Assembly: GCA_003141615.1 (NCBI GenBank)
Contig: PLMV01000147.1
Coordinates: 1,862-36,789, forward strand
Direction of reading: 5' to 3'
Source: Syntrophaceae bacterium
Lineage (GTDB): Bacteria > Desulfobacterota > Syntrophia > Syntrophales > Smithellaceae
DNA length: 34,928 nucleotides
The position numbers and the translations under genes were made by a program. The first letter of the stretch is position 1, and the number at the start of each line of letters is the position of its first letter. Shown here piece after piece: positions 1,890 through 18,376 of this stretch. The notes below the pieces were generated by a model that did not search any database, was not told the origin of the DNA, and was given only the letters and a program-made list of their open reading frames with translations.

Positions 1890-2160
1890 CACGGGTATTT
1901 ATGAAACTTTACGCCAATGGCGGAATAATACCAACACTCTGCGCTTGCGGGATAATTCGACTTACCAATTTTCAATACGCTACGCTTTTGAAATTGGAGT
2001 TTCATTACAACTAACAAATATTACTACTGCACTACGTTTGTGAAGTTTTTGTCTCATTAAAATAGTCCCACTTAGCTTCGCACGTGGGATAATTCAACTT
2101 GCAGATATTATTGTACTGCGCTTGTAATATCTGAGTTTCATTAAAACTTGAGTCTCATTA
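1890..2160. repeat. Hairpin-rich modular repeat, copy A
   Basis: Directly after the ppiD-like stop codon lies a run of hairpins. It begins CACGGGTAT and contains paired arms GGTATT/AATACC (about 1896-1935), CCAATTTTCAA/TTGAAATTGG (1965-1997), TCCCAC/GTGGGA (2066-2089) and a perfect CAGATATTA/TAATATCTG (2102-2133). Constant strings GGGATAATTC, GTCTCATTAA or GTTTCATTA and loop motifs such as GCGCTTG separate them. The same architecture, with different stem sequences, recurs at 34531-34665. It is not coding. It looks like a dispersed chromosomal repeat family located outside both islands. Confidence 0.6.
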
Positions 2161-2198: not shown

Positions 2199-2222
2199 TT
2201 GGTGGGATGAGCGGGATCGAAC
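2199..2222 (-). other. Distal attachment site of element 1 (tRNA-Ala 3'-end fragment)
   Basis: On the minus strand this 24-bp stretch reads as half of the T-arm plus acceptor and CCA of a tRNA. It equals the tRNA-Ala(GGC) 3' end at 21724-21748 except for one missing base in the acceptor stem. Orientation matches the intact tRNA, as expected for a direct repeat made by a tRNA-targeting integrase. GTATACC motifs like those beside the integrase lie 50-80 bp inside. Confidence 0.75.
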
Positions 2223-2274
2223 AAATAGGCTAACAATATTTAATCATTACGTTTCTTTGTGACGTAATTTTTGC

Positions 2275-2300
2275 GATATACCATACCGTATACCATAAAA
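2275..2300. other. Probable integrase arm-type sites, distal end of element 1
   Basis: The stretch contains ATATACCAT, then CCGTATACCAT. The GTATACC core, in one or the other orientation, also occurs next to the integrase at 21563-21608. Short repeats shared by the two ends of an integrative element are typical of integrase arm-binding sites. This is inferred by eye. Confidence 0.45.
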
Positions 2301-2496
2301 GAAAATACAAACCAGAGTTTTACTTTGATAGGACTGCTGCATTTGTTACACCTACTAAGGCTTAACGTGTTTGGGTAAGAAAAAGTGAAGATTACCATTT
2401 GAAAGAGATTGACGGTTGAATTCAGCAGAAGCCGCGTCAGTAGCGTTTAGCTGGAATGGCTTTTTGTGTATCGTTTCAAATTTCGTCTACATTAAT

Positions 2497-3024
2497 TTAT
2501 GAGACCATAAACTTTCTAGAATATTTGTTTCTCCAGAGTTCATCTTGTACGACAGCTTTAATTTCTCGACGTTCACTGTCTTTAAGTATCTTATCCAAAA
2601 CTCTTTGTGGTATAAAAACATTATACGATTTTCCCGACGCAAGTGACAAAGGGCATTTGCATTCTAATTCGTAATTGGAGAGACTTGATAGTACCCAACC
2701 CACAGTCCAAGAAAATCGCCGGTATTTCAAGATATGAGATATAAAATCTATAAATCTTTTTTTTGAACTAGGATAAAGAATAGAAATATTGGATAGGTGA
2801 ACTGTGTAAAGTGATGGATTTTGAACTGAAATGTAAACACCCGTTATCCACTTTTCTTCAATCTTATCGGTACCATATACTATTTTGACTTTCACTCTTG
2901 GTATTGCTCGAGTAACATTCCAAATAAAAACGATAGTAGACAGACAGGCTGCGTATATGGCTAAAAGCTCAGTAACTTTCAATACCAAAATCCCCTTAAA
3001 GGTCGTTGCAATTATTTTGTTCAA
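2497..3024 (-). CDS. Hypothetical membrane-anchored protein, cargo of element 1
   Basis: I do not recognise this 175-residue protein. It has one hydrophobic segment at about residues 18-38 (LLAIYAACLSTIVFIWNV), followed by a soluble beta-rich region with IEEKWITGVYISVQNPS and SNISILYPSS. This suggests a membrane-tethered domain. The frame overlaps the end of the upstream Sel1-repeat gene by 29 bp. A TTG at about residue 14, preceded by AAGGGGAT, is a plausible alternative start. Translational coupling with the Sel1 gene suggests the two work together. Confidence 0.6.
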   Translation of the reverse strand: MNKIIATTFKGILVLKVTELLAIYAACLSTIVFIWNVTRAIPRVKVKIVYGTDKIEEKWITGVYISVQNPSLYTVHLSNISILYPSSKKRFIDFISHILKYRRFSWTVGWVLSSLSNYELECKCPLSLASGKSYNVFIPQRVLDKILKDSERREIKAVVQDELWRNKYSRKFMVS

Positions 3025-4375
3025 GAGTAATTTTAAAATGTTTGATTAAATCATCGCGCTCTTTCTGTAAATCCTCTTTACTTCTTGGCCCATTTTTTCT
3101 TATTTCACTTTCTGTCCTGTCCTTAATTACTTGAAATGCGACATTTGCAGCGTCCTGTGATGCTTTTTCTTCATCAATGTATTTCAGTTTCAGTGGTGTT
3201 GCCCAGTCCGGAAACGATTCGCACTCATTAAGTCTCGCAATTGCATCCTTGTCCTCGGGATCAATTTCCTGCCAGTCGCGTGCTAGTGACGTGAAAAGAT
3301 AACCAAGCGTCGGCAGCATCTTGTCGTATGCTTCACGAAGTGTATGATTAGTCGTCTCCTCTAACTTAGCTTCGTGATAATCTATTAGCCATCTAATTGC
3401 ATATAGAATTGTCTTCTTGGGATACGGTAGTATGCTGCAATCACCAATAAGAGGTCTATGTGCGGCCATCAGGTCCATAAATGCAAAAACAATGTCATGA
3501 TACTTATCCCGGGAAAGTTTCGCTTCGAGTCTGTTCAGATTAGTAAGCGCATTCACGTCCCCATTTTCCGCAGCTTTTCGATACCATTTGATGGCTTCAG
3601 CGTAGTCTTGAGACACGCCTTGACCATTTTCATACATCAAGGCCAAATTGTTCTGCGCTACGGCGTAGTCTTGTTCCGCTGCTATCCGAAACCAGTTTGC
3701 AGCTTCCACATAATCCTGTGGAGTGCCATTACCATCAAAAGCCATCTCTCCAAAACTATTTATCGTCGCAGGGTCTTCGAGGAGTTGCAATTGAGTTTTT
3801 AAGTGATGAATTTCTTCTTTGAGTTGCTGTTCCGTAGCTTGTTTCTGACAATCAGGTTCAGCCTTCTTAGCAAGATGCTCTTCCAATTCGTCTTCAGCTT
3901 CCGCAATTTTTTTTGCAAGGGTTGCAAATTCTTTACGTTCTTCAAAGGATAGAGGCCCCTTTTTTGCTTTAGCAATACTATACATAATTCCTTGGTAAGA
4001 ATACTTATCAGTATCATAAGCTTTTTTAGCAATCATAAATTCCAATTCTGCTCTAATCAAACTTACTTCTGCATTGGCTTTAAGATAGCCAACGACTGCT
4101 TCGTACTCCTCATGGTTTTGATACGCTAGATTTAACGAATACAGTTCCCGCAAGGCATATTTTATATGTGACTTATCTATTGGCGTTCTTGCGTCAGCCG
4201 CAATTCGAATAGCAATATACACGCATAGTAAATCAAATGGTTTTTTGTCGGCGACAAGTTTTTTTTCCAGATGATTTATAAGATCAGATTCCTCTATATA
4301 AATGATGTTTGTTGCACTTTTTATAAATTTCTTTATCTTTCGAGCAACAAAATATTTTTGTAGTTTGAGAAACAT
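2996..4375 (-). CDS. Sel1-like (TPR-type) repeat protein
   Basis: The 459-residue protein has a helical N-terminal region (1-180), a short coiled coil rich in Glu/Lys/Gln (about 155-195), and two clear Sel1 repeats at about 203-275 (DYVEAANWFRIAAEQDYAVA and DYAEAIKWYRKAAENGDVNA). A helical C-terminal domain of unknown type follows. Sel1 repeats are helical protein-binding scaffolds. No signal peptide is seen, so it is probably cytoplasmic. It lies upstream of, and overlaps, the small membrane-protein gene at 2497, suggesting a two-gene operon. The partner and function are unknown. Confidence 0.7.
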   Translation of the reverse strand: MFLKLQKYFVARKIKKFIKSATNIIYIEESDLINHLEKKLVADKKPFDLLCVYIAIRIAADARTPIDKSHIKYALRELYSLNLAYQNHEEYEAVVGYLKANAEVSLIRAELEFMIAKKAYDTDKYSYQGIMYSIAKAKKGPLSFEERKEFATLAKKIAEAEDELEEHLAKKAEPDCQKQATEQQLKEEIHHLKTQLQLLEDPATINSFGEMAFDGNGTPQDYVEAANWFRIAAEQDYAVAQNNLALMYENGQGVSQDYAEAIKWYRKAAENGDVNALTNLNRLEAKLSRDKYHDIVFAFMDLMAAHRPLIGDCSILPYPKKTILYAIRWLIDYHEAKLEETTNHTLREAYDKMLPTLGYLFTSLARDWQEIDPEDKDAIARLNECESFPDWATPLKLKYIDEEKASQDAANVAFQVIKDRTESEIRKNGPRSKEDLQKERDDLIKHFKITLEQNNCNDL

Positions 4376-4630
4376 ATTTTCATCTCTTACAAAATAATTA
4401 ATATACGAACTTCGTTTTTTCTGATGGATTGAATATCATAATAACATGAATCCTCTTTTTAAAAAAGAGGGAAATGCACAGTTTCATTTGTTACGGATTG
4501 AAATCTTGCATCTTTGTTGACGTTGACAATTTGTTTCTTACAGGAAGAGGTCTTTGCTGAAAATAAAGAGACGCATAAATTAGCCGCCTCTTATATTATA
4601 AGCTCTCCTGCTAGCCATCTTCCGTAAAAG
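4376..4630. other. Intergenic region with an inverted repeat
   Basis: No gene was found here. An inverted repeat, CCTCTTTTT at 4452-4460 and AAAAAAGAGG at 4461-4470, has essentially no loop. It may be a weak terminator for the leftward gene cluster ending at 4631, or a cruciform-prone site. The rest is AT-rich without a recognisable signal. Confidence 0.35.
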
Positions 4631-4915
4631 CTACTGCTTAGGATTTTTTTTGCTTTTTGGAAAAGTGGACTCCAGTTGCTGAGATTGAGTCTTCTTAAAT
4701 TTTTCCTTCAGCAACTTTTCGTTTAGTCGGTGCAATCTCATATTCTCTTTGTCCGGCTGGTTCTGGTTGTCCGGCGTATTCTGCCTTGATGGTCCTAACG
4801 GATTCCCGGAATGAATCAATATCCCCAAAGAGTCCGCTTCCTCCTGCGTCATCGAACTTACTTTGATACCCAGAGCCGCGTACCTTGCCTTTCTCTTCTC
4901 GTCCAACGAAATCAC
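4631..4915 (-). CDS. Small hypothetical protein, third gene of the riboswitch-2 cluster
   Basis: This is a 94-residue charged protein that I do not recognise. The N-terminus (LDEKRKARYAALGIKVSSMT) looks helical. The middle is rich in Asn, Gln and Pro and probably disordered, and the C-terminus is a Lys/Gln-rich tail. The start appears to be GTG at 4915, 11 bp after the preceding gene, behind GGGGG. It belongs to the cluster 5996-4631 read behind the second SAM-II-like riboswitch. Confidence 0.5.
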   Translation of the reverse strand: MISLDEKRKARYAALGIKVSSMTQEEADSLGILIHSGNPLGPSRQNTPDNQNQPDKENMRLHRLNEKLLKEKFKKTQSQQLESTFPKSKKNPKQ

Positions 4916-4926
4916 CCCCGTTTCTT

Positions 4927-5187
4927 TTAAATAATTTCTTTCTTTGGTGGAATAGTGGATGCCTTGGCCGCTAATGCCTCCTGCAACCCTTTCTCCGCGA
5001 TCTTGTGCAGCGCCAGTTGTCCTGCGTCCGGCGGATGCTTCTGAAACATTCCTGCTTTCTCGAATTGCCCTACGCAGGCTTTCTTGAAGTCCTCCCAGCT
5101 TTGACCTTTCTCCCGCATTATAAACACTGCGTTCTTTGGTCTTGTTGTAGATTCCATATTTTTGTTATTTGTGTTTTCCTTGCTCAT
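4927..5187 (-). CDS. Small hypothetical protein, second gene of the riboswitch-2 cluster
   Basis: This 86-residue protein of unknown function has a low-complexity Asn/Lys start, followed by VFIMREKGQSWEDFKKACVG and a helical Ala-rich end. Its ATG overlaps the stop of the preceding gene (ATGA). A strong AAAGGAGG site lies 4 bp upstream of the ATG, identical to the site in front of the first gene at 5996. The repeated ribosome-site block is part of the metK-derived tail described at 5201. Confidence 0.55.
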   Translation of the reverse strand: MSKENTNNKNMESTTRPKNAVFIMREKGQSWEDFKKACVGQFEKAGMFQKHPPDAGQLALHKIAEKGLQEALAAKASTIPPKKEII

Positions 5188-5996
5188 AATGCCTCCTTTT
5201 TTACTTCAATCCGGCTGCTTCCAGAAGAGCGTCCACCCTGTCTGTCTTTTCCCAGGGAATCCTTTACGGTCGAATATGAGCATTGATGATAATCGCTCAG
5301 CACTGAAAAACTAGGAGCGTGCCATATTTTTCCGTCCTCTGGATTGTAACGATTGGCATTTGCCTTCCTTTTATTGAGTTGTCCGCCGCAATAAGCGCAA
5401 AGATTGTCATTCTCGCAATAGCAGGATACTCTGACTATAAGAAAATCATCCATTATCTTATTTAGATCAAGACACTTTCCTTTGTAATCTCCACATACCG
5501 GACAGATCACAAGCCCCTTAGGAAGTCCGTTTTCCTGAAAACCCTGAAGGCATATTATTTCTTCATGTGTCGCTTTCCGGCCTCCCTTTGAGAGGTTTCC
5601 TACAATATAACCTGACGTTCCGTTTCTTTGGATAAAGTCTTTAAGTTCTTTCTCTCTCAGCAAAAGATCAGCATCAGCTGGCTGTTCCTCGGAGAGCAGC
5701 AGCCGGCCCGTTACAAAATGCCCCCCACCCTTGGGGCTTTGTTCTAAAAAACGCGGTTTATTCTCCGGTAAAAAATACACACCCTTATTCTCATTCAGCA
5801 CAAGGAAGACCCCTAATTTGTTAGCGTCCGTTTGAGCTTGCGCAAGTCGAAAGAGATCTTCAGGATTGTTTTGTTTGGAGAGAAGGTTGATGTGAAAAAA
5901 CCAGTCTTTGATAACAATCATCAAATAAGGATACCCCTTGAAAAAAGGTTTTTGCTCCCTGCAATCATTTTCATTCTTTGAATTATTTTTGTTCAT
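5184..5996 (-). CDS. Conserved hypothetical protein with cysteine-rich C-terminal zinc-binding region
   Basis: The 270-residue protein of unknown function has two parts. The N-terminal ~130 residues are a mixed alpha/beta region (GYPYLMIVIKDWFFHI, LGVFLVLNENKGVYFLP). Then comes a Cys-rich region with CPVCGDYKGKC, CYC and CAYCGGQ, which probably binds two zinc ions, followed by GKIWHAPSFS, a motif I associate with small hypothetical proteins of mobile elements. The last ~25 residues are read out of frame through a decayed metK 3' end, so the natural C-terminus may have been altered. It is the first gene after a SAM-II-like riboswitch and terminator, with AAAGGAGG upstream of its ATG. Confidence 0.65.
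   Translation of the reverse strand: MNKNNSKNENDCREQKPFFKGYPYLMIVIKDWFFHINLLSKQNNPEDLFRLAQAQTDANKLGVFLVLNENKGVYFLPENKPRFLEQSPKGGGHFVTGRLLLSEEQPADADLLLREKELKDFIQRNGTSGYIVGNLSKGGRKATHEEIICLQGFQENGLPKGLVICPVCGDYKGKCLDLNKIMDDFLIVRVSCYCENDNLCAYCGGQLNKRKANANRYNPEDGKIWHAPSFSVLSDYHQCSYSTVKDSLGKDRQGGRSSGSSRIEVKKEAL
5201..5290 (-). pseudogene. Decayed 3' end of a second metK gene
   Basis: Read in the metK phase, this stretch gives FDRKGFP, a one-base loss, then WEKTDRV and AAGLK followed by a stop. That matches the end of the intact metK at 6276 (GRNGFPWEKTDRV and ETAGLK). Nucleotide similarity by eye covers roughly the last 85 bases of metK, plus the stop. The relic differs enough to derive from an old duplication or a different metK allele. 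It forms the tail of the overlapping 270-residue ORF, read in another frame. Confidence 0.75.
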
Positions 5997-6106
5997 AATG
6001 CCTCCTTTTTCTGTTAAATTTGTTAATGTCAGTTCCGGACATCATTTCCTATTTCCCGGAGCTGAAAAACCATAACCACCAATGACAAGGCGGTCATACC
6101 TGTCCC

Positions 6107-6142
6107 AAAAACAAAAAACCCGCGCCAAGAGGCAACGGGTTC
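6107..6142 (-). terminator. Rho-independent terminator after SAM-II-like riboswitch copy 2
   Basis: On the minus strand, arms AACCCG..GCC and GGC..CGGGTT form a stem with a short loop, followed by a run of T. It directly follows the aptamer-like sequence and precedes the 270-residue gene by about 110 bp. The same order (aptamer, terminator, gene) is present in front of metK, suggesting control by premature termination. Confidence 0.75.
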
Positions 6143-6159
6143 ATTAATAAAAACACATT

Positions 6160-6213
6160 GGCCTTTAGCACATTTTTATAGCGGAGCAAGTAACCTGTTT
6201 AAATCGCCGCTGT
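6160..6213 (-). promoter_or_regulatory. SAM-II-like riboswitch, copy 2
   Basis: The minus strand reads AACAGCGGCGATTTAAAC, then TTGCTCCGCTATAAAAATG, then TGCTAAAGG. This matches the SAM-II pattern: a GCGG/CCGC P1 stem, a GAUUUAA loop, UUGC before the 3' arm, an A-rich stretch, and GCUAAA that closes the pseudoknot around S-adenosylmethionine. It is nearly identical to the copy upstream of metK. No convincing promoter is visible just upstream, so it may be reached by read-through from metK. Identification is by eye; SAM-V, a structural relative, is the alternative. Confidence 0.78.
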
Positions 6214-6275
6214 TATTTATTTAGTCATGCTATGTTTCTCATCTCATGTTCATCGTCCAAATATTGTTTCCTTTT

Positions 6276-7460
6276 TTACTTCAGTCCAGCAGTTTCCCGA
6301 AGATCTTTCACACGGTCTGTTTTTTCCCACGGGAAACCATTGCGGCCAAAGTGGCCATAGTTGCAACTCTTGCGATAAATCCACCCTTTTGGCGCGGTGA
6401 GTCCCAGGTCCTTGATCATCATAGCCGGACGGAAATCAAATATTTTGCCATCCATAAGAATCCGGGCAATCTTATCGTCATCAATTTTCCCCGTGTCATA
6501 GGTACTGACATTGATACTGAGCGGTTTGGCTACACCAATCGCATAGGCAATCTGAATCTCGCATTTGTCGGCCAGTTTCGCGGCAACAATATTCTTGGCG
6601 GCGTAACGGGCATAATAAGCAGCGGAACGATCCACTTTTGACGGGTCTTTACCTGAAAAAGCACCGCCGCCATGTGATCCCACGCCTCCATAGGAATCCA
6701 CGATAATCTTACGACCTGTAACACCAGCATCGCCGCATGGACCGCCAATAACAAACTTGCCCGTCGGGTTGATGAAAAACTCTGTCCGGTTGGTCAGAAG
6801 TCCCGTTTTATCGAGAACGTTATGCGCAACATCTATCAAATCTTTACGTATTCGTTTTAGTGGTACATCGCGGGTCTGATGGGAAATTACGACTGTTGTA
6901 ATTTTAACAGCTTTTCCATCCTCGTGTAACACGCTAACCTGCGCCTTGGAATCCGGGCGGAGATATTCAATAACCTTCTCCTTGCGAATCCGGGTTAGTT
7001 CCTCCAATAAGCTGTGTGCAAACATGATTGGGGCAGGCATTAATTGAGGTGTTGCGTTGGATGCATAGCCGAACATCATGCCCTGATCGCCTGCGCCCTG
7101 ATTTTCAATGGGCCCACGGTCTACTCCTCTCTCGATATTCTCCGACTGCTTATGAATAGCGCAGACGTAGTTAAAAGTGTCGTAACTGAATCCCTCGGAG
7201 GGATCATCGTAACCGATGTCCTCCACGACATTACGTGCTATCATCTGCGGATTGATCTTTTTCCAATTCTTGCAGGAAATTTCTCCAAGATTAACTACGA
7301 GATTTGGCCCCACAGCGGTCTCGCAACCCACATGGGCATGTTCATCCTGTTCCAGACATGCGTCCAGAATTGCGTCGGAAATCTGATCACATACTTTGTC
7401 CGGATGTCCTTCCGAAACCGATTCCGATGTGTAAATATGGCGTGTCTTCAATTTACTCAT
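6276..7460 (-). CDS. metK: S-adenosylmethionine synthetase (methionine adenosyltransferase)
   Basis: The 394-residue protein has the full set of MetK signatures: SESVSEGHPDKVCDQISDAI at the N-terminus, GAGDQGMMFGYA in the central domain, and GGGAFSGKDPSKVDRSAAY plus GFPWEKTDRV at the C-terminus. It makes S-adenosylmethionine from methionine and ATP in the cytoplasm. The start is the ATG at 7460 preceded by AAAGGA; a longer frame to 7532 would run through the terminator and is rejected. A SAM-II-like riboswitch and terminator lie upstream, giving feedback by its own product. It lies inside the region bounded by the element-1 attachment sites, which is unusual for a core metabolic gene. Confidence 0.96.
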   Translation of the reverse strand: MSKLKTRHIYTSESVSEGHPDKVCDQISDAILDACLEQDEHAHVGCETAVGPNLVVNLGEISCKNWKKINPQMIARNVVEDIGYDDPSEGFSYDTFNYVCAIHKQSENIERGVDRGPIENQGAGDQGMMFGYASNATPQLMPAPIMFAHSLLEELTRIRKEKVIEYLRPDSKAQVSVLHEDGKAVKITTVVISHQTRDVPLKRIRKDLIDVAHNVLDKTGLLTNRTEFFINPTGKFVIGGPCGDAGVTGRKIIVDSYGGVGSHGGGAFSGKDPSKVDRSAAYYARYAAKNIVAAKLADKCEIQIAYAIGVAKPLSINVSTYDTGKIDDDKIARILMDGKIFDFRPAMMIKDLGLTAPKGWIYRKSCNYGHFGRNGFPWEKTDRVKDLRETAGLK

Positions 7461-7499
7461 GTGATTTTCCTTTCTTTTGTAAATGGTTGTTTTAAAGCC

Positions 7500-7536
7500 C
7501 TTAAAAACAAAAAACCCGTGCCAAAAGGACACGGGT
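7500..7536 (-). terminator. Rho-independent terminator in the metK leader
   Basis: On the minus strand, ACCCGTG and CACGGGT arms enclose a short loop and are followed by a T-rich run. It lies between the aptamer (7558-7612) and the metK start (7460), so it is likely the expression platform of the riboswitch. Confidence 0.82.
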
Positions 7537-7557
7537 CATAAAATCAATTATGTTGCC

Positions 7558-7612
7558 AGCCTTTAGCACATTTTTATAGCGGAGCAAGTAACCTATCTAA
7601 CTCACCGCTGTT
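7558..7612 (-). promoter_or_regulatory. SAM-II-like riboswitch, copy 1 (metK leader)
   Basis: The minus strand reads AACAGCGGTGAGTTAG, then TTGCTCCGCTATAAAAATG, then TGCTAAAGG. These are the SAM-II landmarks: P1 GCGG/CCGC, a loop that can pair with the 3' CUAAA segment, and an A-rich triplex strand. Position upstream of metK fits S-adenosylmethionine feedback. The downstream element is a terminator rather than the ribosome-site masking usual for SAM-II, so control is probably at transcription. Confidence 0.82.
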
Positions 7613-7613
7613 A

Positions 7614-7646
7614 ATTATATGATACGCCTTTCTCAGATTTTGTCAA
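7614..7646 (-). promoter_or_regulatory. Sigma-70-type promoter of metK
   Basis: On the minus strand a perfect TTGACA (7646-7641) is followed after 16 bp by TATCAT (7624-7619), which overlaps TATAAT (7619-7614). Transcription would start just before the riboswitch aptamer. The equivalent region upstream of riboswitch copy 2 lacks such a promoter. Confidence 0.7.
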
Positions 7647-7733
7647 GACATATTACCTACTCCCGGGAAAACAATAATAGGAAGAAATGCTTGTTGCTTT
7701 CACATAGCGTTAGCGATCCGTTGGAACGCCTTG

Positions 7734-8432
7734 TTAACTGGTTAACTTCCAAACCGACTCCGGATATGAAAGATAATAAATAGAATTGAAACCATAGGTA
7801 TTACATATAATATTATCCTTTAAGCGAGCTTTGCCTGAATTGAACAGTCCGTCACTCACAAGGAGCAACCTTACGTCTGATATATTCTTTGAATACTTTT
7901 GAAGATTCTTTGCTTTCTCAAATATGACTCTTTCAATAATATCTTTATTAATAGGAGGCACAAAACCGACTTGATCAGACACATAATTCCATCTTTTGTA
8001 TTCGCCTAATTGATCTGAAAGTCTCAAAACATAAATTACACAGCCGTTATAGGGCTCAATCCGTTTTTGTTCAAACTCCGATAGTTGCGATGCCTCCTTT
8101 GTAATCGAGCTCAATAACTTATCGTGATGACCGATATAACCCAATAAATTAACTCTGATGGCGGAACCATTTGACTTGTAATAAACATCGGCCAATTTTT
8201 GAATATTCTTCAGGTTATTCTTTTCATTAGCTTTTTTTGTAGATCCCTTGCTTGACTCGTCGAGATATATTTCTCTGACCTCTAACCCAAATTTCCCTAA
8301 TTCTGTTGTCACTATCAGGTCAGGCCAACTGACTTCATCAGGAGAAGGTGCTACGGCCCAAGACTCTTTAAGCAACTCACCTGTTCTTTTGGCATAAGTC
8401 AATTCAAGACTTTTCTGATTTTGCGAGGTCAT
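7734..8432 (-). CDS. Hypothetical protein, possible PD-(D/E)xK nuclease-like fold
   Basis: I do not recognise this 232-residue protein as a named family. A pattern WPDLIVTTELGKFGLEVRE (about residues 36-54) resembles the catalytic core of restriction-endonuclease-like folds: Asp38, then Glu51-x-Arg53 in place of Glu-x-Lys, with a preceding conserved-looking Glu19 helix. Further on are a strand-rich NGCVIYVLRLSD and VRLLLVSDGL. It lies upstream of metK as single-gene cargo. The nuclease idea is only an inference from spacing. Confidence 0.5.
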   Translation of the reverse strand: MTSQNQKSLELTYAKRTGELLKESWAVAPSPDEVSWPDLIVTTELGKFGLEVREIYLDESSKGSTKKANEKNNLKNIQKLADVYYKSNGSAIRVNLLGYIGHHDKLLSSITKEASQLSEFEQKRIEPYNGCVIYVLRLSDQLGEYKRWNYVSDQVGFVPPINKDIIERVIFEKAKNLQKYSKNISDVRLLLVSDGLFNSGKARLKDNIICNTYGFNSIYYLSYPESVWKLTS

Positions 8433-8590
8433 GATTTATCTTTATACACAACTTTTTAATGAAGATGGATTTTTAACGATTACTGGTTATAACATAGCAT
8501 AAAAATAATATTTTGAAAAATAAGACTTACAGGAAGGAAGCATCACTCGGATGAATCGAATTAACTCTGATAATGAGCATTAATTAAAGA

Positions 8591-8932
8591 TTAAAATTCC
8601 GGCACTTTGACGGATAGATGCTTTTCAAACCATTCCGCGACCAGGCGGCGGTGACAGTCTTCGCCGGGTTTTTCCCAACACAACAAGATTACATCTTCGC
8701 CCAGATCGTCCAGGACTTTGGCTGGGTCTAGTTTACCAAGCACGTCGCGCTGATACTCTTTGACATATGCCGGCCAGGATAAACCTGCCCTGAAGCGATT
8801 GAGTAAGTCTATCGACGGCGCTAATAAAATATACCGGCGGCGGCCAGCCCACCAGCGCGGCGGCCAGCGTGCAATGCTAACGGCGTTTGGATTGTCTGCT
8901 ATTGTTTTATTTCCGAAATTTGATGTTTTCAC
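8591..8932 (-). CDS. DUF488-like protein
   Basis: This 113-residue protein ends with ILLCWEKPGEDCHRRLVAEWF, a C-x(n)-CHR pattern typical of DUF488 proteins of unknown function, and has the N-terminal aromatic RWPPRWWAGRRR segment seen in short members. The likely start is GTG at 8932 behind GGGGTAA. DUF488 genes are frequent on mobile elements, but the biochemical role is not established. Confidence 0.65.
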   Translation of the reverse strand: MKTSNFGNKTIADNPNAVSIARWPPRWWAGRRRYILLAPSIDLLNRFRAGLSWPAYVKEYQRDVLGKLDPAKVLDDLGEDVILLCWEKPGEDCHRRLVAEWFEKHLSVKVPEF

Positions 8933-9359
8933 TATTTACCCCTTAATTATATTATACTTTTTTTATTTGTGTTTATCAAGAGAAATATAAAATAATATCG
9001 CTTACTTATCATTATTTTTTCATTCTCAATTTTGGCATGTATTTTGTCCAATTCAATACGCGGCATTTAAAGGCTTCTCTTTTTTTTGTTGTTTTTTATC
9101 CCCGCCAACATAGTGGTGGTAAGGGTTTACGGTCGCTCTCTAACCCTTTATGGATATGGGTTTACTCTTACAATCGCCAACATAGTGATAGTAAGGGTTT
9201 CTTTTTTTATCCCCCGCCAGCCCAGTGTGGTATTGAGCTAGACGTCGCTTTAAAATGGTCGCCACTCAATTATTTTAAAGTTCCCCTTGTGAGTATATGC
9301 ATGTCATTTTTAAAGTATTTTTTGTCGTTTCTGATCTTGTGGCATGGTTTTTGTCCACG
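8933..9359. repeat. Non-coding region with imperfect direct repeats and hairpins
   Basis: There is no gene on either strand with credible signals. Two 26-bp near-identical repeats starting CGCCAACATAGTG and ending GTAAGGGTTT lie at 9103-9128 and 9175-9200, 72 bp apart. A degenerate third (CGCCAGCCCAGTG) lies at 9215-9227, each after a T-rich run. AAGGGTT and AACCCTT arms around 9121-9148 can form a hairpin. Position beside the terminase and excisionase-like genes suggests a control, replication or packaging region, but that is speculation. Confidence 0.5.
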
Positions 9360-9644
9360 TCATTTTGTCAAAAACTTTGATCGAGCAACAGGCCAAGTAG
9401 AAGGTGACCTCGGCGTTGCGGCCGATTTTGGTTCTATATCCGGATCAAAAAAATCTTCCGGGTTGACTTTCCTTTTTTCTATAAAATCTTTCAACGATTG
9501 TTCCGATACGCGAACGGAGCGACTACCGACCTTTATGGCCGTCAGAGATCCTTCAGCGATCAGGTCGTAAATATGCCGTTCTGTGCAGCTGAGCAAATCA
9601 GCTACAACATGCAGTGTCAAATATTTATCTTGGATCGATGTCAT
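9360..9644 (-). CDS. Excisionase-like helix-turn-helix protein (HTH_17/MerR-like)
   Basis: This is a 94-residue protein. Residues 10-57 (LTLHVVADLLSCTERHIYDL, then IAEGSLTAIKVGSRSVRVSE) show the winged helix-turn-helix pattern of small excisionase-type DNA-binding proteins: a recognition helix after a 'CTERHIYDLI' turn and a basic wing. The C-terminal tail is Pro/Ser-rich. It lies directly downstream of the terminase large-subunit gene at the phage-module edge of element 1. It may act in excision or in regulating the module. Confidence 0.7.
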   Translation of the reverse strand: MTSIQDKYLTLHVVADLLSCTERHIYDLIAEGSLTAIKVGSRSVRVSEQSLKDFIEKRKVNPEDFFDPDIEPKSAATPRSPSTWPVARSKFLTK

Positions 9645-9681
9645 TCAATTCCTTTATTCACCTATCTCATAATGTGGAGCA

Positions 9682-11703
9682 TTATCGCCGTCTCATCCAT
9701 GATGATTTCGCAACCACCGGTTTTTCACTTTTCGATTTATTGTCCGCCGCGGATAAGGTTTGTTGTCTGAGACGCTCAGCTAACAGCCGCAGACCGCCGC
9801 CGGGAAATTCCATCTCGACGCAAACCGACGCCAGGATTTCCGCATCGAACAAATGATTAGGACGTTGGTGAGGGTTAACCCATTCCTCCGCGCCTTTATC
9901 GACAATTTGTTTTTCTTCGGCCAGGATTTGCTCAGCATAATCCGCTCCGGTACCGGCGTGCAGAAATGCAGCGCCAGGCAAATTACGCGTGTCTTCCTGA
10001 GCGGCAAGTTGCAAACGATAATGGAACTGATCTTTGGCCTTTTGGGTATCGACATGCAAAAGCCTGAGCGCTGCGGGTAATTTTTTGCCCGAAGGAGTGG
10101 ACATTATTGGTTCGCCAATTTTTAACATTCCCGGAAGTGAATTTGTTGCGCCCTTAGTTCCCCAAAGAGCGACGCCGCCGCGTCCGCGGTTTTTTATAAG
10201 CCAATAATACGCTTCTTCTGTCATGCTCATGCCCTCATATTTCTCGCCGCCGCCCGTATCCTTACAGGCGCGAAAGATACGCATTTTGCGGTCTGTATCG
10301 CCGACCGGATAACTGGATTCGTAAATTAGTTTTTCGACTTCATCTTCCGTCTCCAGAAAGCCATAATGGATCAGCCAACTGGTGAGTTCCGCCGTCCATG
10401 CCCTCACAACAAACCAGAAGCCGTGTTTTTGCTTGTCAATGCCGCATGTCAGCGCAATCGCGGATTCGGGAACGGTCTGCGGAGCCAGGTCGCAGCGGGC
10501 CGCTAATATCTGCGCTTCGTTTTTACTGATGATGGTAAGTTTCCACGGTTCGGCCAAATGTTTATTGCAAAAGTCTTTCAATTTATTGATGTCGCTTTGG
10601 CCTTTTAGGAATGCTGCGGCAATGGTCGAAAAGGAAATAAATGGCGATATCCAACTGGGAATGTGGAAGCCGATCTTTGCCGGACGGTTTATCCGCAGGT
10701 ATTCCATGAGTTCAACTTCGCTTTTTCTGTCGCGCCATCGGCCATGACGAACAGCGCGGTCTCGGTCATAATCATTCCAATGCGCAGAACACTGAGGGCA
10801 CTCATACCAGGCGAGTTTTTCGGATTCGATTGTTTCGGCGGGAAGGGAATGATAATCGCCTTTTTCATCCGGTTCCTTTTCGTGTTCCCATTTGATATTC
10901 TTAAAAATCATTTTGTGATGATGGTCGCAAAACGGGCAATTAACGTGATAATCGAAAATGACCTGGGCTTCTTTGGTTAATGCTTGCCAGATGTTTCCTG
11001 ATTCGATTGTCGGCGTGCTGATTTTCCACTTTTTACAGTTGTGACGATATGTGATTGCACGAGCTTCTCCCAGGGATATCGGATCGGTTTCACGCTTTCC
11101 GGCTGTGTCGGGGTATTTATCGATTTCATCAAATACCAGATACCTGATCGGTTTATTAGCCAGCCGGGAGGCGGAACGTGCCCACGCCATGTAAAGTTGC
11201 ATATGCTGGAGGCTAATGCGCAACATGCCCGCGTCATCGTCGATACCGGTCATGTAGGATGCCAGGCGCCGGCTGGATTTAATCATGGGCTGGATTCGGT
11301 CCTGACAGTTTTCTTTGGCCGTCAATTCGTCGGGGTAGATAAAGAGCACGGGGCCAGGATCGCGGTCTATGGCATATCCGATGCAATTTAGGGTTGATTC
11401 CGAGGCGCCCACTTGAGGGGCTTTGCATAAGATAGTGGTTTGCACGGACGGGAAAAAAGAGGCATCCATGATTCCGGCCAAGTAGGGTGTAACTTCATTT
11501 TTCCATCGGCCGGGCAGCACCGACATTGTAACATTACGATGCAATTCAGCCCACTTTGATACTAATATTTTTTTATGCTTGCGGAAGATGCGCCGTTCAC
11601 TTTCGGAAAATTTAATTCGGTGCCGGATTTCGCCTTCTTGCTTAAGCATTGCAGGAGGCAGCCAGGGGGAGTTGCGGGGTATGTGGATAGTGTTTACGTT
11701 CAT
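9682..11703 (-). CDS. Phage terminase large subunit, GpA family
   Basis: The 673-residue protein matches the lambda gpA-type terminase large subunit, which pumps DNA into proheads and cuts it. Seen in order: an adenine/P-loop region CKAPQVGASES (about 93-103), Walker B YLVFDEIDKYPD (about 188-199), a zinc-knuckle insertion CPFCDHHH...CPQC (about 255-310), and a C-terminal RNase H-like nuclease half starting near TCGIDKQKHGFWFVVRAW (Asp as metal ligand). Length fits intact members. It overlaps the small-subunit-like gene by 4 bp. It is remarkable that no portal or capsid gene follows; the next gene is an HTH protein. Confidence 0.9.
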   Translation of the reverse strand: MNVNTIHIPRNSPWLPPAMLKQEGEIRHRIKFSESERRIFRKHKKILVSKWAELHRNVTMSVLPGRWKNEVTPYLAGIMDASFFPSVQTTILCKAPQVGASESTLNCIGYAIDRDPGPVLFIYPDELTAKENCQDRIQPMIKSSRRLASYMTGIDDDAGMLRISLQHMQLYMAWARSASRLANKPIRYLVFDEIDKYPDTAGKRETDPISLGEARAITYRHNCKKWKISTPTIESGNIWQALTKEAQVIFDYHVNCPFCDHHHKMIFKNIKWEHEKEPDEKGDYHSLPAETIESEKLAWYECPQCSAHWNDYDRDRAVRHGRWRDRKSEVELMEYLRINRPAKIGFHIPSWISPFISFSTIAAAFLKGQSDINKLKDFCNKHLAEPWKLTIISKNEAQILAARCDLAPQTVPESAIALTCGIDKQKHGFWFVVRAWTAELTSWLIHYGFLETEDEVEKLIYESSYPVGDTDRKMRIFRACKDTGGGEKYEGMSMTEEAYYWLIKNRGRGGVALWGTKGATNSLPGMLKIGEPIMSTPSGKKLPAALRLLHVDTQKAKDQFHYRLQLAAQEDTRNLPGAAFLHAGTGADYAEQILAEEKQIVDKGAEEWVNPHQRPNHLFDAEILASVCVEMEFPGGGLRLLAERLRQQTLSAADNKSKSEKPVVAKSSWMRRR

Positions 11704-12500
11704 AATATTTCTTCTACCGAGTCGCTTCGCTCCGGGGATCGTTCTCTGGGATTATTTTCATGATCCACAGGCTCACTATCAATTACGACTTCATATTCCC
11801 TACTGCTCGCATAATGGTTGATGTGTTCATCAATATCGTTGCTCATCTTATTGATTAGCTCTCCCACTTTCCGCGTGTCGCCGCCGGACAACTCTATCCA
11901 ATCGGAGACGTTAGTTTGCACCCAATGCTTTAATCCGGCAATTAATATCCCGGCGCGCGTGGCTAGTTCGATTTCCATCTGCTCACGGGGAATATATAGG
12001 CCGCGGTCTTTTTCGTAATTAAATGTTTCTCGGTCATTTTTGAGTGTGAGGTTTCTTAATTCGGCTTCGAGTTTTTGCCTTTGTAATTCATCGAGGCCCT
12101 CCTGAAGACGTTTGCCGGTCGCCTTTTTTTTGAGCCAGGTTTCTGCGTACTTCTCTATAGATTTTTGCGTAAAAGTTCCGTCAACCTGTCTTAGCAATTT
12201 ACGCTCAATCTTTATGTGCCGATTTAAGGTAGCTTTGGATGTTTTCCATCCATTTTCTTCAAGATATTTTAAAATGGATTTTTCCGTAGAATATTTTTCA
12301 TCGGATTTTTCGCCGCCCTGAGCCAATCTGAATTTTTCCAGAGCTTCCTGCGCAGAGTTCATATTCCGATAATTTTGAGAAGACGGGTCTTCCTTAACAT
12401 TTATTTGTGTCTTCAAATAGGCATTAAACAGTAATATACCTTTACTCTTTATATCATCGGGTTTGCCGTCGATTAATTTTTCGAGTTCTTCTTTTTGCAT
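11700..12500 (-). CDS. Terminase small-subunit-like DNA-packaging protein
   Basis: This is a 266-residue protein. Residues about 85-180 (NGWKTSKATLNRHIK..., then a long basic coiled coil GLDELQRQKLEAELRNLTLK) resemble small terminase or Nu1-like proteins that recognise packaging sites with an N-terminal winged HTH and oligomerise through helices. Its position immediately upstream of, and overlapping, the large-subunit gene (ATGA) supports this role. The start at 12500 has only a weak ribosome site. Confidence 0.7.
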   Translation of the reverse strand: MQKEELEKLIDGKPDDIKSKGILLFNAYLKTQINVKEDPSSQNYRNMNSAQEALEKFRLAQGGEKSDEKYSTEKSILKYLEENGWKTSKATLNRHIKIERKLLRQVDGTFTQKSIEKYAETWLKKKATGKRLQEGLDELQRQKLEAELRNLTLKNDRETFNYEKDRGLYIPREQMEIELATRAGILIAGLKHWVQTNVSDWIELSGGDTRKVGELINKMSNDIDEHINHYASSREYEVVIDSEPVDHENNPRERSPERSDSVEEIL

Positions 12501-12511
12501 AGTTTAATTTT

Positions 12512-13921
12512 TTATTTTACTTTTTTTTCGCCAATTGGCGAAATTACTTTTATTAGGTTCTTCCAAGTAATTTCCTGATCAGGATGATTTAAAATATATT
12601 CCCGGACTTCTTTTTCGTGAAACACTAAATGGTTAATCCGGCCCGCGCCGCCGTATTTGCCATTACGCAAGAGGGTAAAACGTCCCGGTTCATTGATAAT
12701 TTTAACGCCGGGATTGTCGCGCAGGAGCTTCCAAAGCTCAGCTAAAAGCGGTGGTGTGCCTTCTGGTGGCGACTGGATATTCCGGATACCGGCCTGCGCC
12801 GGTATGACGGCGGAGATCGTCAATACTGGCGGCAGCCCTGCTCTTATCCACTGTCCGAGGTCTATCCCCATTTGATACGCTTCGCCCGGATCCTTGCCTC
12901 TGGGTACGGGCCACCGATCGCAATTATCCGGAAATTGTTCCGCCCACCATTTAATGGCTCTCTGTGCCGCTGTCTTTCCGCCTCCCACATCACCATAATC
13001 AAGGGCGTTGAGTATCTGTACAGCCCCTTTTAAAATGGCGTAGGCGGCAGCGTCAGGTTTTCCTTCGAGTGTTCCCAAGGCGACGGTTCCGGCCAGATCG
13101 GTGGACGCGGCGCAGGCGATGGCATCGAGTTCGGATTCGACAAGGATAAATGCCTTGCGTTCGGCGCCGATGACCATTGTGGCTTTAGATGAACCCCAAA
13201 TAAAAATATAAGGATCGGGATATTCCTCGGTACGATGTTCTTCCGGTCGGCGGATTTTGATGCGAATAATTATTTGTTTTTGTTCCTGGATTCCCGCCTG
13301 CGCGGGAATGACACATAGAAGTGGAATTACTAATCCTCTGGGTATCCACAATTTGCGCGACTTCCCATTTTCTTTTTTCTGATCAGGCAATCCCCACGCG
13401 GTATGGTGACGGAATATGTCCTTGCCGTCTTCGCCGGGATTCCAGCCGAGGCGCGCTTGTTCTGCGGCTTCGGCGCTAATGCCGCGGGAGGCCAGCCAGG
13501 ACAAGGCAGATTTGTTTTCTTTAAGATTACCTTGTGCCCAGGTGATAAATTTCTGCGCCCTTTCCTGCCACAAATCGGTTGGGTTTTTATATTGTGTCGG
13601 TTCGAATTCTCTTTTTTCCGGTGGCGGGGTAAAGTCCGTCGGGCGATCCGCCATAGTTATATCAAGATAGGCGCAAGCATCTTTAAAATTCATTCCTTCA
13701 AAATCAATAAGGAACTGGATATTGTCACCCGCTTTCAGGCAAGACCGGCACCAATAACTCCCCTTACCATCGTTCTGGTTCGGCCAAATATGAAAGCGAT
13801 CACTCTCCTTTGGTCGTCCCCCATCACCACATCCCGGGCACGGACCGTGCCATTCGCCGCCGTGCGTTGACGAAACTTTCTTAAGATTCACTTTTTTTAC
13901 TGCCAGGTCGTAGGTATTCAT
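12512..13921 (-). CDS. Phage/satellite DNA primase with zinc ribbon and Toprim-like domain, interrupted by two in-frame REP sequences
   Basis: This is a 469-residue protein. The N-terminus has a zinc-binding primase motif (CPGC at about 29-32 and CRSC at about 58-61). A Toprim-like region follows around 235-330 (ILVESELDAIACAA, with an LDYGDVGGGKTA motif as acidic site). It would make primers for element replication together with the D5-type helicase upstream. Two segments, VIPAQAGIQ near residue 208 and VIPAQAGIR near 374, are translations of REP-like palindromes that do not interrupt the frame. Inserted residues probably form surface loops. The end lies 11 bp before the small-terminase gene. 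Confidence 0.82.
   Translation of the reverse strand: MNTYDLAVKKVNLKKVSSTHGGEWHGPCPGCGDGGRPKESDRFHIWPNQNDGKGSYWCRSCLKAGDNIQFLIDFEGMNFKDACAYLDITMADRPTDFTPPPEKREFEPTQYKNPTDLWQERAQKFITWAQGNLKENKSALSWLASRGISAEAAEQARLGWNPGEDGKDIFRHHTAWGLPDQKKENGKSRKLWIPRGLVIPLLCVIPAQAGIQEQKQIIIRIKIRRPEEHRTEEYPDPYIFIWGSSKATMVIGAERKAFILVESELDAIACAASTDLAGTVALGTLEGKPDAAAYAILKGAVQILNALDYGDVGGGKTAAQRAIKWWAEQFPDNCDRWPVPRGKDPGEAYQMGIDLGQWIRAGLPPVLTISAVIPAQAGIRNIQSPPEGTPPLLAELWKLLRDNPGVKIINEPGRFTLLRNGKYGGAGRINHLVFHEKEVREYILNHPDQEITWKNLIKVISPIGEKKVK
12782..12808. repeat. REP-like palindrome inside the primase gene, copy 2
   Basis: Arms ATACCGGC (12787-12794) and GCCGGTAT (12799-12806) flank the loop CTGC, in the context CGGAT...GAC. 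It is translated as VIPAQAGIR. Compared with copy 1 at 13284, two base pairs of the stem have changed on both arms, keeping the pairing. Confidence 0.8.
13284..13312. repeat. REP-like palindrome inside the primase gene, copy 1
   Basis: Arms ATTCCCGC (13290-13297) and GCGGGAAT (13302-13309) flank the loop CTGC, followed by GACA. This is the classic dRS3/REP-type palindrome, whose read-through translation is VIPAQAGIQ on the minus strand. It lies in frame within the primase coding region. Confidence 0.82.
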
Positions 13922-13923
13922 AA

Positions 13924-14208
13924 TTATTTATGTGGCGGGTCAAATTGTTTGGGCCGCCACAGTTTTTTATTATTCGGATTGCCTCTTTTTACAGGAATAC
14001 CTTCAATCAGATTTAGGGCAGCCGGCAAAATAGGGAGGATTTTCTTTTCATCATCATCTAATGCTTTCAAAGCCATTGTTGTGTTTGCGAGACCCAAGAT
14101 ACTACAGACATCTTTAGCAACCCACCATGGATCGTTCTGCTCGTCCAAAATGACACGTACGGGTCTGTCTTCGTAAATAAAGGGAATAATATTGGTGTTT
14201 TCGTTCAT
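13924..14208 (-). CDS. Short BRO-N domain protein (antirepressor-like)
   Basis: The 94-residue protein covers a BRO-N domain: RPVRVILDEQNDPWWVAKDV, followed by CSILGLANTTMALKALDDDE, the standard signature of phage antirepressors and Bro proteins that bind DNA. The usual C-terminal KilAC or other domain is absent; the protein ends after ~40 residues of Pro/Asn-rich sequence, so it is either a minimal form or truncated. A strong AAGGAG lies before the ATG. It is first in the minus-strand run leading into the primase gene. Confidence 0.82.
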   Translation of the reverse strand: MNENTNIIPFIYEDRPVRVILDEQNDPWWVAKDVCSILGLANTTMALKALDDDEKKILPILPAALNLIEGIPVKRGNPNNKKLWRPKQFDPPHK

Positions 14209-14219
14209 GATCTTTTCTC

Positions 14220-14374
14220 CTTTTTTATTATATGTAGATGGTTTATTTTTTAAAAATCTTCCTTTTCTTCTTCTTTTTTTTATATCTATTTATTATTATT
14301 ATATATTTATATATATATTTAATATATACCCCACCCCTTAGGGACAGTTATCGATATTTGCAGGGAATCTCTAA
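14220..14374. other. Very AT-rich intergenic region, candidate replication origin
   Basis: A 120-bp stretch is almost only A and T, with a polypyrimidine run (about 14255-14282) and TATATATA repeats (14295-14328), followed by a short GC-rich box CCCCACCCCTTAGGGAC. It lies between the D5-type primase-helicase and the BRO/primase genes. DNA-unwinding elements look like this, but no iterons are visible. The origin function is inference. Confidence 0.3.
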
Positions 14375-14611
14375 TCATTGATAATTAATAAAACCGCTCT
14401 GGCGTTCATATAGCGAAAACGCTCCCCGCCTCCCTAGAAAAAATCCACAAATCAGACTATCTACTCCGATCACTGAATGATTACGAATATTTATATGCTT
14501 TGAGCGGAAATGACGCAATTTTCTCATCTGTCCCTTGATTATAGGGACGAAGGGAGGCTTTGTTGACTTTTCCTTGTTTGTTTTAATAAATTTTAATAGA
14601 TTTGCTTTCAT
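14375..14611 (-). CDS. Possible small basic protein overlapping the primase-helicase stop
   Basis: This is an open frame of 78 residues, rich in Lys/Arg/His, with no family recognised. Its ATG overlaps the stop of the primase-helicase gene (TATGA), as in coupled genes, but there is no clear ribosome site and the C-terminal part looks random. It could be a chance ORF. Confidence 0.3.
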   Translation of the reverse strand: MKANLLKFIKTNKEKSTKPPFVPIIKGQMRKLRHFRSKHINIRNHSVIGVDSLICGFFLGRRGAFSLYERQSGFINYQ

Positions 14612-16263
14612 ACGTTTATAGCCTCCCCGCCTCCCTGATTAATGTCGCAAGTATCGCAAGGCGGTTCTGTGGGGGTTTTCTTTCCGAAGTGCAGATTCCG
14701 GCATTCAACACATTGAGTCGGCCATAAGGCAATGCCGTGATAAATGTTGCAGCCGTTGGATTTGGTTTTGCTGAATTTCATGGAGAGGTTTTTGCCGAAT
14801 TTTGTGCCTGACCATTCTTTCTTTCCAATGTTTGAATTATACCAGGTGATGAATCGCGCATAGAGTATAGATGCTTTTTCATGAGCGCCCGGCTCAAGGA
14901 AGCAACATTCATCGATGAAGTCGGCTAGTAGATCCTCACGCCGGCGATATTCTTCGGACGCTTCCAGTATTGTACGAGGTGGATTTAGTCCAACCCGCTG
15001 CCATTCCAAACATCCCTTGACCAGCCAAGCTAATATCCCTGACGCTTCTTTGCGGAGCTGATCACCAAGATCAAGTATGGCCCGGCGCTCGTATTCGTTT
15101 TGAGGTTCCCGATTAACAAAACTGATATCATGCGGGATTAAATGAAAGCGTTCCCAGAATGCTTTATCATTGGGAGGGGCTTCGGGCTGTGTGTTAGTCT
15201 GCAAAAATAGTTTGTGCGTTGGCTTAAATCTGATTGGGCGCTTGTCGTTCGGCCAACGGCCCTGCAGTTCGTCGCCGCCGGTCAACCATTTTATCTTTGC
15301 GGCGCTGAATCGCTGGTCGTCATCAACCTCAGCGGCAAAAGCGAAGCGTAAACCTTTGAGGCTCATGGTGTCGGGCGATGGCCCGGCGGAGGATCGGGAA
15401 AACTTCTGGGATAGAAGCATTTCTGATGGGATCGATCCAGCCAGGGAACCCATCGCGTGACTGATCGCCTCTACGATTTTGGTGCGGCCGTTCCATCCCG
15501 ACTTTCCGAATAATACCGGAAACACTTTCTCCTGCGTCAACCCGGTCATGGCATATCCAAAAAGCCGCTGGAGGTATTCGACCATTGATCTATCTGAATT
15601 TTCCTTGTCGCAGTTATGTATCTGCAACAGGGTTCTGTCCCAAAGGGGCGCTGGTTCGTCTATGTCTTTAAATTCAACAGGGCTGGCCAACGATAAGTAG
15701 TCAGACGGGCGGCCGGGCTTGATCTTTCCGGTGGTTAAGTCAATAACGCCATTGGCGCAGGGGAAAAGCATGGGCTTCTCGTCGAACTCTTCCCCGGCGA
15801 TGGCTATCAGATTGTCTATGGTATGCGCGAATTTAAGAGTTGCGGTCCGGCGATTGTCGCCGCGTAACTGGCGCGCACGCTCCAGGAGTTTGTCACATTT
15901 TTTGCGGAGTTTATTTGATTCGTCCTTGTCATCGGTATTGGCACGCAGATCCGCTGTTGTTTTATATTCTTCAAGATATTTCTTGGCGACTTCATCAACC
16001 GCGGCTAAGGCTTCATCCAAAACGTCCAACGTCCAGAAATGTCCCTGCCATTTATACCATTCTCGTTGACTTTTACAGTAAAGGAATTTGTCCCGGAAAA
16101 GCGCAGCGTATAACATGCCGTCGCCCAGGGAATTGGAAAAAAGGCACTGCTGGATAAATTTACTATCTATCTGCGGTTTGTCATCCACCGCCGGGATTCC
16201 GGCGGCTTCCAGCTCAACGCGATTTTCAACCAGCCTATGGATGTTGTCATCTTTGTCGCTCAT
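14608..16263 (-). CDS. D5/P4-type primase-helicase (SF3 helicase)
   Basis: This is a 551-residue protein. Residues ~40-200 match the D5_N region preceding viral SF3 helicases (LFPCANGVIDLTTGKIKPGR). The helicase follows: Walker A-like LFGKSGWNGRTKIVEAI (251-267), FAFAAEVDDDQRFS as Walker B region (~310), sensor-like HKLFLQTNTQPEAP, and a C-terminal winged-helix part (FIDECCFLEPGAHEKASILY). It would unwind DNA at the element origin. The usual NGK(S/T) of Walker A reads NGRT, i.e. Arg replaces the catalytic Lys. A CxxC...CDTC pair near the end may bind zinc. It overlaps the upstream gene by 4 bp. Confidence 0.87.
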   Translation of the reverse strand: MSDKDDNIHRLVENRVELEAAGIPAVDDKPQIDSKFIQQCLFSNSLGDGMLYAALFRDKFLYCKSQREWYKWQGHFWTLDVLDEALAAVDEVAKKYLEEYKTTADLRANTDDKDESNKLRKKCDKLLERARQLRGDNRRTATLKFAHTIDNLIAIAGEEFDEKPMLFPCANGVIDLTTGKIKPGRPSDYLSLASPVEFKDIDEPAPLWDRTLLQIHNCDKENSDRSMVEYLQRLFGYAMTGLTQEKVFPVLFGKSGWNGRTKIVEAISHAMGSLAGSIPSEMLLSQKFSRSSAGPSPDTMSLKGLRFAFAAEVDDDQRFSAAKIKWLTGGDELQGRWPNDKRPIRFKPTHKLFLQTNTQPEAPPNDKAFWERFHLIPHDISFVNREPQNEYERRAILDLGDQLRKEASGILAWLVKGCLEWQRVGLNPPRTILEASEEYRRREDLLADFIDECCFLEPGAHEKASILYARFITWYNSNIGKKEWSGTKFGKNLSMKFSKTKSNGCNIYHGIALWPTQCVECRNLHFGKKTPTEPPCDTCDINQGGGEAINV

Positions 16264-16577: not shown

Positions 16578-16713
16578 TTAACCCCGCCTAATCTATCGTA
16601 CTGTAATTTATTTCATGATATTATTATCTCATTCGTTAAATGGGAAGCCTGCGGCGTCTCATTTCGGATTGAAAATTTAATACCCGCCAATCTTTGAGGG
16701 ATATTACTGCGCG
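16578..16713. other. Short intergenic region
   Basis: No gene or clear terminator was found. It probably contains the promoter of the 16577-14608 gene pair, but I cannot point to convincing -35 and -10 boxes. Confidence 0.3.
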
Positions 16714-17736: not shown

Positions 17737-17751
17737 GGTATTGCGCTCTCC

Positions 17752-18339: not shown

Positions 18340-18376
18340 GTTGTATTTCTCCTTAAATTTTTTATTTTATCTAATA

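Follow-up and report, generated by a model that had tools for sequence, protein, structure and literature searches.

Two repeat copies and the islands between them

The window, by which we mean the whole stretch of 34,928 nucleotides analysed here (contig PLMV01000147.1, Syntrophaceae bacterium), carries two copies of a modular hairpin repeat. Copy 1 occupies positions 1889-2160 and copy 2 starts with the AAT at 34528. A sequence-only reading had described two such copies with a shared start, linkers and loop motifs, and both are present with the quoted motifs. Its extent for copy 1 (ending at 2160) stands, whereas copy 2 runs on beyond 34665, through a degenerate CTAATTCCG...CGCTTCGCTTTCG module, to approximately 34736. 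The parts are as follows, H1, H2 and H3 being the hairpin types described below:

1889-2160, + strand: copy 1, complex and partly degenerate, directly after the stop codon of a SurA/PpiC-like gene (293-1888)
1890-1898, + strand: left-end motif CACGGGTAT of copy 1
1894-1932, + strand: first hairpin H1 of copy 1, degenerate (GGTATT...AATACC), read from sequence
1949-1958, + strand: linker GGGATAATTC of copy 1
1959-2007, + strand: H3 hairpin module of copy 1 (GACTTACCAATTTTCAA...TTGAAATTGGAGTT-TCATTA)
2008-2059, + strand: additional hairpin module of copy 1 (CAACTAACAAATATTACT...GTCTCATTA) with a partly decayed stem, read from sequence
2060-2095, + strand: second-type start of copy 1, AATAGTCCCAC...GTGGGATAATTC (small hairpin H2 plus linker)
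2096-2143, + strand: H3 hairpin module of copy 1, stem GCAGATATTA/TAATATCTG, closing TCATTA
2144-2160, + strand: right-hand remnant AAACTTGAGTCTCATTA of an interrupted outer module of copy 1, read from sequence
34528-34736, + strand: copy 2, intact left end AAT/CACGGGTAT, degenerate right end
34535-34571, + strand: hairpin H1 of copy 2, GGTATG...CATACC around CCAAAGCAAGCTTTGG
34573-34583, + strand: hairpin H2 of copy 2, CCGCTTTGCGG
34587-34617, + strand: second H2-type hairpin of copy 2, ATCCCGCTGTGCTTTGCACATGGGAT, ending in the linker GGGATAATTC
34618-34665, + strand: H3 hairpin module of copy 2, stem CAAACTTCAG/CTGAAGTTTG, closing GGTC-TCATTA
34666-34736, + strand: degenerate terminal module of copy 2 (CTAATTCCG...GTGTGACCTTTAGGTTAT insert...CGCTTCGCTTTCG)

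The exact linker GGGATAATTC is found at 1949, 2086 and 34608; with one mismatch allowed, its occurrence inside the window alone is not significant. Both window copies are degenerate members of their family, and folding of the DNA strand gives them z scores of -1.8 and -2.7, whereas a clean sequence of the common type, 143 nt long, scores -5.2.

Two islands lie between the copies. A prophage-like island (2206-21800) sits beside tRNA-Ala (21725-21800) and contains an integrase (20313-21545), a terminase large subunit GpA (9682-11703) and a D5-type primase (14608-16263); 17 nt of the tRNA-Ala 3' end (GATGAGCGGGATCGAAC) recur at 2206, likely the other attachment site. The second island (21905-34343) lies at tRNA-Leu (CAA), whose 3' part, 59 bp long (21933-21991), is repeated exactly at 34285-34343 beside an integrase (32848-34089), and includes a baseplate hub gp41-like protein at 26067-27080. 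The end of the window (34905-34928, GACCGGGGACATTTTTGAATTG) resembles the end of yet another repeat type.

The earlier remark that the copies flank the islands only on their chromosome side is literally true, but a link to the islands is unsupported. With approximately 238 modules in 3.54 Mb, 2.2 would be expected in the 32 kb between the copies, and the probability of finding none is 0.11; repeat density thus explains the arrangement, and we reject a role as island boundary in favor of a chance neighbourhood.

A repeat family of the Smithellaceae

In the organism's own 3.54-Mb genome, the linker GGGATAATTC occurs exactly 193 times (110 and 83 by strand), compared with 2 (one per strand) in a reversed control. 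The left-end motif CACGGGTAT is found 126 times (71 and 55) versus 12 (8 and 4), and GGGATTGTTCAACTT 45 times versus 0. The refuting condition named in the sequence-only reading, that no more than these two copies exist, thus fails, and the family goes far beyond the copies first seen.

Copies were gathered by pattern searches and from sequence stretches, in metagenome assemblies. Scanning species genomes with CTCCGCTTYGCGGGATNNTTCNAC returned at least 85 stretches, and the matches listed all come from Syntrophaceae, Smithella, Smithellaceae or Deltaproteobacteria assemblies. The pattern GCGGGATNNTTCNACT, sought in 149 genomes of the order, is present in all 15 members of the genus to which the window belongs (1 to 91 copies per genome), in 20 of 30 other Smithellaceae (up to 85 copies) and in 9 of 104 genomes elsewhere, where one or two matches each come near the reversed control. 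The family is restricted to Smithellaceae, with a background level outside, and copy number differs widely among sister species. Beyond the small sample of two copies, nothing speaks for a chance likeness of unrelated repeats or an assembly artefact, an explanation whose probability is practically nil given hundreds of copies, many independent assemblies and near-zero reversed controls.

Anatomy of the element

Alignment of 63 simple copies reveals sharp boundaries. On the left, random sequence is followed by AAT (in some copies AAC) and CACGGGTAT; on the right, GTTTCA(A)CAATAA is followed mostly by A and then by random sequence. H1 has the form GGGTAT...ATACCC and holds one or two inner hairpins (AAAGCAAGCTTT, CCGCAGCAAGCTGCGG), H2 is the small hairpin CCGCTTTGCGG, and H3 is framed by either of two linker types, TAATTC-GACY...RGTC-TCATTA and TTGTTC-AACT...AGTT-TCAACAA, which pair with their own closing ends. 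H3 loops often contain an inserted, sometimes reiterated hairpin GTGACCT...AGGTTAT.

A complete copy reads AAT/CACGGGTAT-H1-ATACCC, H2, then at least one H3 module, the right-end form being TTGTTC-AACT-stem-loop-stem'-AGTT-TCAACAA/T and the other form TAATTC-GACY-stem-loop-stem'-RGTC-TCATTA. Such an element measures 85 to about 300 nt and has no coding content, and its H3 modules are gained, lost and nested in older modules. No terminal inverted repeat is common to the left end AATCACGGG and the reverse complement of the right end TTTATTCGTGAAACTCC.

Precise insertion at AATAA

When flanks were compared all against all, eight locus pairs emerged in which one place is filled in one species and empty in another. 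Loci L128 and L168 are filled where L080 is empty, with flanks approximately 90% identical and a length difference of exactly one element: L168 reads ...GACAAA-AATCACGGG...GTTTCAAC-AATAAACTTG and the empty L080 ...GGCGAA-AATAAAAGTG. Further pairs are L170 and L120 (CTAC/AATAAC), L095 and L119, L136 and L031, and L077 and L166. In 15 genomes of the genus, a further ten queries made of joined flanks retrieved empty places for most, and six of these sites could be aligned across multiple genomes. The empty place almost always reads AATAA, and the filled one has AAT on the left and AATAA on the right. Insertion is precise at AATAA. That AAT stands at both element ends and once in the empty site fits a 3-bp target duplication and an element-borne AAT alike.

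Several insertions differ between the window's genome and its close relative G111. At the L090 site, three genomes hold copies of different build while their closer relatives are empty; such scattered states mean repeated use of one target or precise loss. At the L015 site, G111 (L262) carries two extra H3 modules between nearly identical flanks, so modules come and go quickly.

We consider it probable (roughly 0.8) that the family is a non-autonomous mobile DNA element made of stacked hairpins, specific to Smithellaceae and inserting precisely at AATAA. Insertion takes place in one orientation, leaving AAT at both ends. Because the element codes for nothing, and has neither gene nor terminal inverted repeats, we infer that it must be moved in trans. 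Weighing against a mobile element are a mover that was not found, the scattered states at L090, the uncompensated decay seen between L138 and L167 (below) and the degenerate copies of the window itself.

Stems vary freely while pairing is kept

H3 modules lacking loop inserts have exactly 42 nt between TTC and TCA. We analyzed 131 distinct 42-nt hairpins, with 37 different 5' arm octamers, over 13 stem positions. Watson-Crick pairing reaches 91.3% of stem positions, compared with 59.4% when partners are shuffled (maximum 61.6%) and 10-36% when the partner is slid by one to three columns. Two to four pair types occur at each stem position, and mutual information averages 0.72 per pair, compared with at most 0.046 in 300 shuffles; slid partners, the sole control for common descent in these figures, give 0.18-0.33, the portion owed to shared descent. 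The main stem class contains 47 double changes by which pairing is restored, where 14 would be expected if the arms changed independently. The earlier observation that stems differ while pairing is kept thus holds in a far larger sample, at a strength that excludes chance.

H1 differs between the orthologous copies L140 and L172 by two full replacements of T-A by C-G pairs, and the same-site copies L138 and L167 show decay without compensation. On the element strand, G.T and A.C mismatches number 21 each in columns 0-13; over the two main stem classes there are 20 and 23, with one class leaning one way and the other the opposite way. Preference for G.T would be expected of a structured RNA, or of a single strand recognized as a hairpin. 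The equality, of modest power, points to the DNA level or to copying between arms.

Pairing may instead be kept by mutation and not by selection. In quasipalindrome correction, the polymerase switches template between arms, a process documented to create and maintain hairpins (PMC8794818) and one that makes fresh inverted repeats. The excess of compensated double changes, symmetric for G.T and A.C, and the nested palindromic growth of loops, with GTGACCT...AGGTTAT reiterated, are what it would produce. Inverted loops, one signature of the process, are rare, however (1 of 154), and some orthologous copies decay unrepaired. That the linkers and the 42-nt spacing are constant, and that the loop motif GCGCTTCG has an orientation, suggests that recognition is at work as well. 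As a full account we hold template switching to be a serious possibility, though rather improbable. A possible trace of a switch between arms is seen in L109 (minus strand), where the loop of the terminal-module H3 is exactly inverted (AAAGCGCAGCGCAT for ATGCGCTGCGCTTT).

Returning to the mobile element, its hairpins would be kept paired at the DNA level, most likely because the mobilizing machinery handles a folded strand or cruciform, and arm-to-arm copying possibly helps. Both causes, hairpins needed for transposition and copying between arms, are possible. The sequence-only reading had offered selection on structure or a copying mechanism: conservation of pairing under sequence change was correctly seen and the choice is undecided, with selection at the RNA level disfavored, but mobility was not foreseen.

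Search for the mover

No mobilizer was found among the Y1, Y2, IS110 and reverse-transcriptase families, each of which is missing from some copy-rich genomes. One candidate is a Y1 tyrosine transposase of the RAYT kind, which would make the repeats a REP/REPIN family as in Pseudomonas and E. coli. Those repeats are likewise short, dispersed, non-coding and hairpin-forming, and high copy number, intergenic location, compensatory stem changes and stop-supplying ends are all reported for them (PMC3116915, PMC3733652): REP stems change in a compensatory manner at conserved length (PMC3116915), families have alternative complementary stems, and GTAG-tagged ends often provide the neighbouring gene with a stop codon (PMC3733652). 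Moreover, all of the highest-copy genomes tested hold some Y1 protein.

We searched for a Y1 partner in the window's genome and 20 relatives, inspected flanks and built a tree. At none of 30 Y1 loci does the repeat bracket the gene terminally; Y1 genes have other ends, and no Y1 clade follows copy number. Y1_Tnp is absent from G082 (10 contigs, 98% complete), G132 and G123, which have 15-23 strict-pattern copies, an absence that is not final in incomplete MAGs; genomes without copies hold up to four Y1 genes. The window genome's only Y1_Tnp match (L176 1501-1803; G000:C174:18051-18353) carries an in-frame TGA. The aligned boundaries AAT/CACGGG and GTTTCA(A)CAAT/AAA show no unpaired GTAG or CGTC tag. 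Unlike a REPIN, in which two inverted REPs close one long hairpin, the whole element does not pair end to end and has at least two different hairpins in series; unlike REPs, it strings several different hairpins together in a set order, with constant linkers and an AAT/AATAA target, and no cognate RAYT was found. A REP/REPIN identity is hence unlikely.

Two side observations concern the Y1 loci. AGCTG/CAGCT words abound in the DNA near the L176 match and may form another small repeat array. L197 (1390-2530) encodes a 320-aa RAYT-like Y1 transposase with its own inverted ends (GAGCCAAGCAAAGACTTGACCCC), an element other than the hairpin-module repeat.

Y2_Tnp, expected of an IS91/Helitron-like element, has no match in G000, G111 or G096. 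Among the loci examined, a regular-expression search for left ends lacking a right end revealed no longer, autonomous copy with a gene; the search yielded only chance matches, truncated copies and copies missed by the pattern. Pairing is possible between the linker ATTGTT that precedes H3 and the AACAAT end that follows it, and the guide and cleavage-site arrangement at IS200/IS605 right ends is similar. An IS200/IS605-like guide may be proposed as a lead only: at the left end a guide would not fit 5' of the hairpin, and Y1 is not universal in carriers.

One may also imagine a self-diversifying hairpin element with no dedicated transposase. Its modules would spread and nest at AATAA or TTAA-like sites through fold-back or template-switch synthesis during host replication. 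By the same process one arm would be rewritten from the other, leaving stem sequences free to drift with pairing, loop and linkers unchanged. We find this scheme distinctly doubtful.

Insertion into stop codons and gene neighbourhood

Of the 25 real copies whose left end is reached by an open frame of 100 codons or more, 19 are entered in one frame (one third expected; P = 1.6e-5). This frame reads ...xAA/TCA CGG GTA TGA and gives protein tails ending in -SRV, -PRV or a close variant. In empty relatives, a native TAA stands at that place: GAA TAA (L243, L031), CAA TAA (L257) and AAA TAA (L119). Many copies lie exactly in a TAA stop, an insertion that is tolerated because the left end brings an in-frame stop three codons on. 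Survivorship suffices to explain the bias, since AATAA contains TAA, the element brings a stop and other coding insertions are lost.

Many copies lie just after genes, and their orientation relative to neighbouring genes is unbiased (17, 16, 11 and 10), which speaks against a terminator role. In five right ends (GGAGTTTCAACAATG; L083, L114, L134, L159, L175), the motif GGAG-N8-AATG falls at the start of the next gene; judged by its sequence, the SD-like GGAG eight bases before ATG is a putative ribosome-binding site, and the ATG may start the downstream gene.

Strong covariation and a location just downstream of genes would also suit a structured RNA, whether terminator, riboregulator or small RNA, with selection acting on the transcribed hairpin. 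Yet G.T is no more frequent than A.C, although RNA would tolerate G.U; in REPs, by comparison, frequent G.T pairing has been read as RNA function (PMC3733652). Also against it are the lack of orientation bias, the variable presence among close species and Rfam 15, whose covariance models give no match to the repeats above the gathering score and find two tRNAs only in the window. We regard an RNA role as very unlikely.

Known small elements and significance

Bacterial MITEs (Correia, ERIC, RUP and others) are similarly protein-free, shorter than approximately 300 bp, present in many copies, presumably moved in trans and endowed with long stem-loops (PMC2229807). MITEs share terminal inverted repeats with a DDE-type insertion sequence; the Smithellaceae repeat differs in having neither terminal inverted repeats nor TA termini, its ends sharing only the 3-nt AAT. 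The CIR elements of Caulobacter likewise have separate hairpins, two inverted-repeat arms joined by a linker, and no terminal inverted repeat (PMC2229807); the present repeat belongs to another organism and sequence, and has a variable number of modules, nested insertions and demonstrated empty sites. In contrast to an integron attC array, copies are dispersed singly over contigs in both orientations. Cyanobacterial SDRs, mitochondrial double-hairpin elements and pneumococcal BOX are very small nested or modular hairpin elements whose movers are unknown. Their hosts and sequences are unrelated.

Our literature search found no description of such repeats in Smithella, and the family is previously undescribed in the literature searched. 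REP/REPIN and MITE-like elements are its nearest known kinds, but the features by which we tested for them (tag, bracketing RAYT gene, terminal inverted repeats) are all lacking. Three properties are new: different hairpins follow one another in a fixed order, joined by constant linkers and with stems that vary freely; modules turn over rapidly at fixed sites; and stop codons are replaced in frame.

The family offers a natural experiment on hairpin pairing: copies number in the hundreds and stem sequences in the dozens, close species can be compared at one and the same site, and there is no bias toward RNA. Selection on structure can thereby be separated from arm-to-arm copying. It also presents a mobile element made harmless in a stop codon by the stop that it brings, which places the same short tail on unrelated proteins. 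Its mover, once found, could reveal a new small transposition system.
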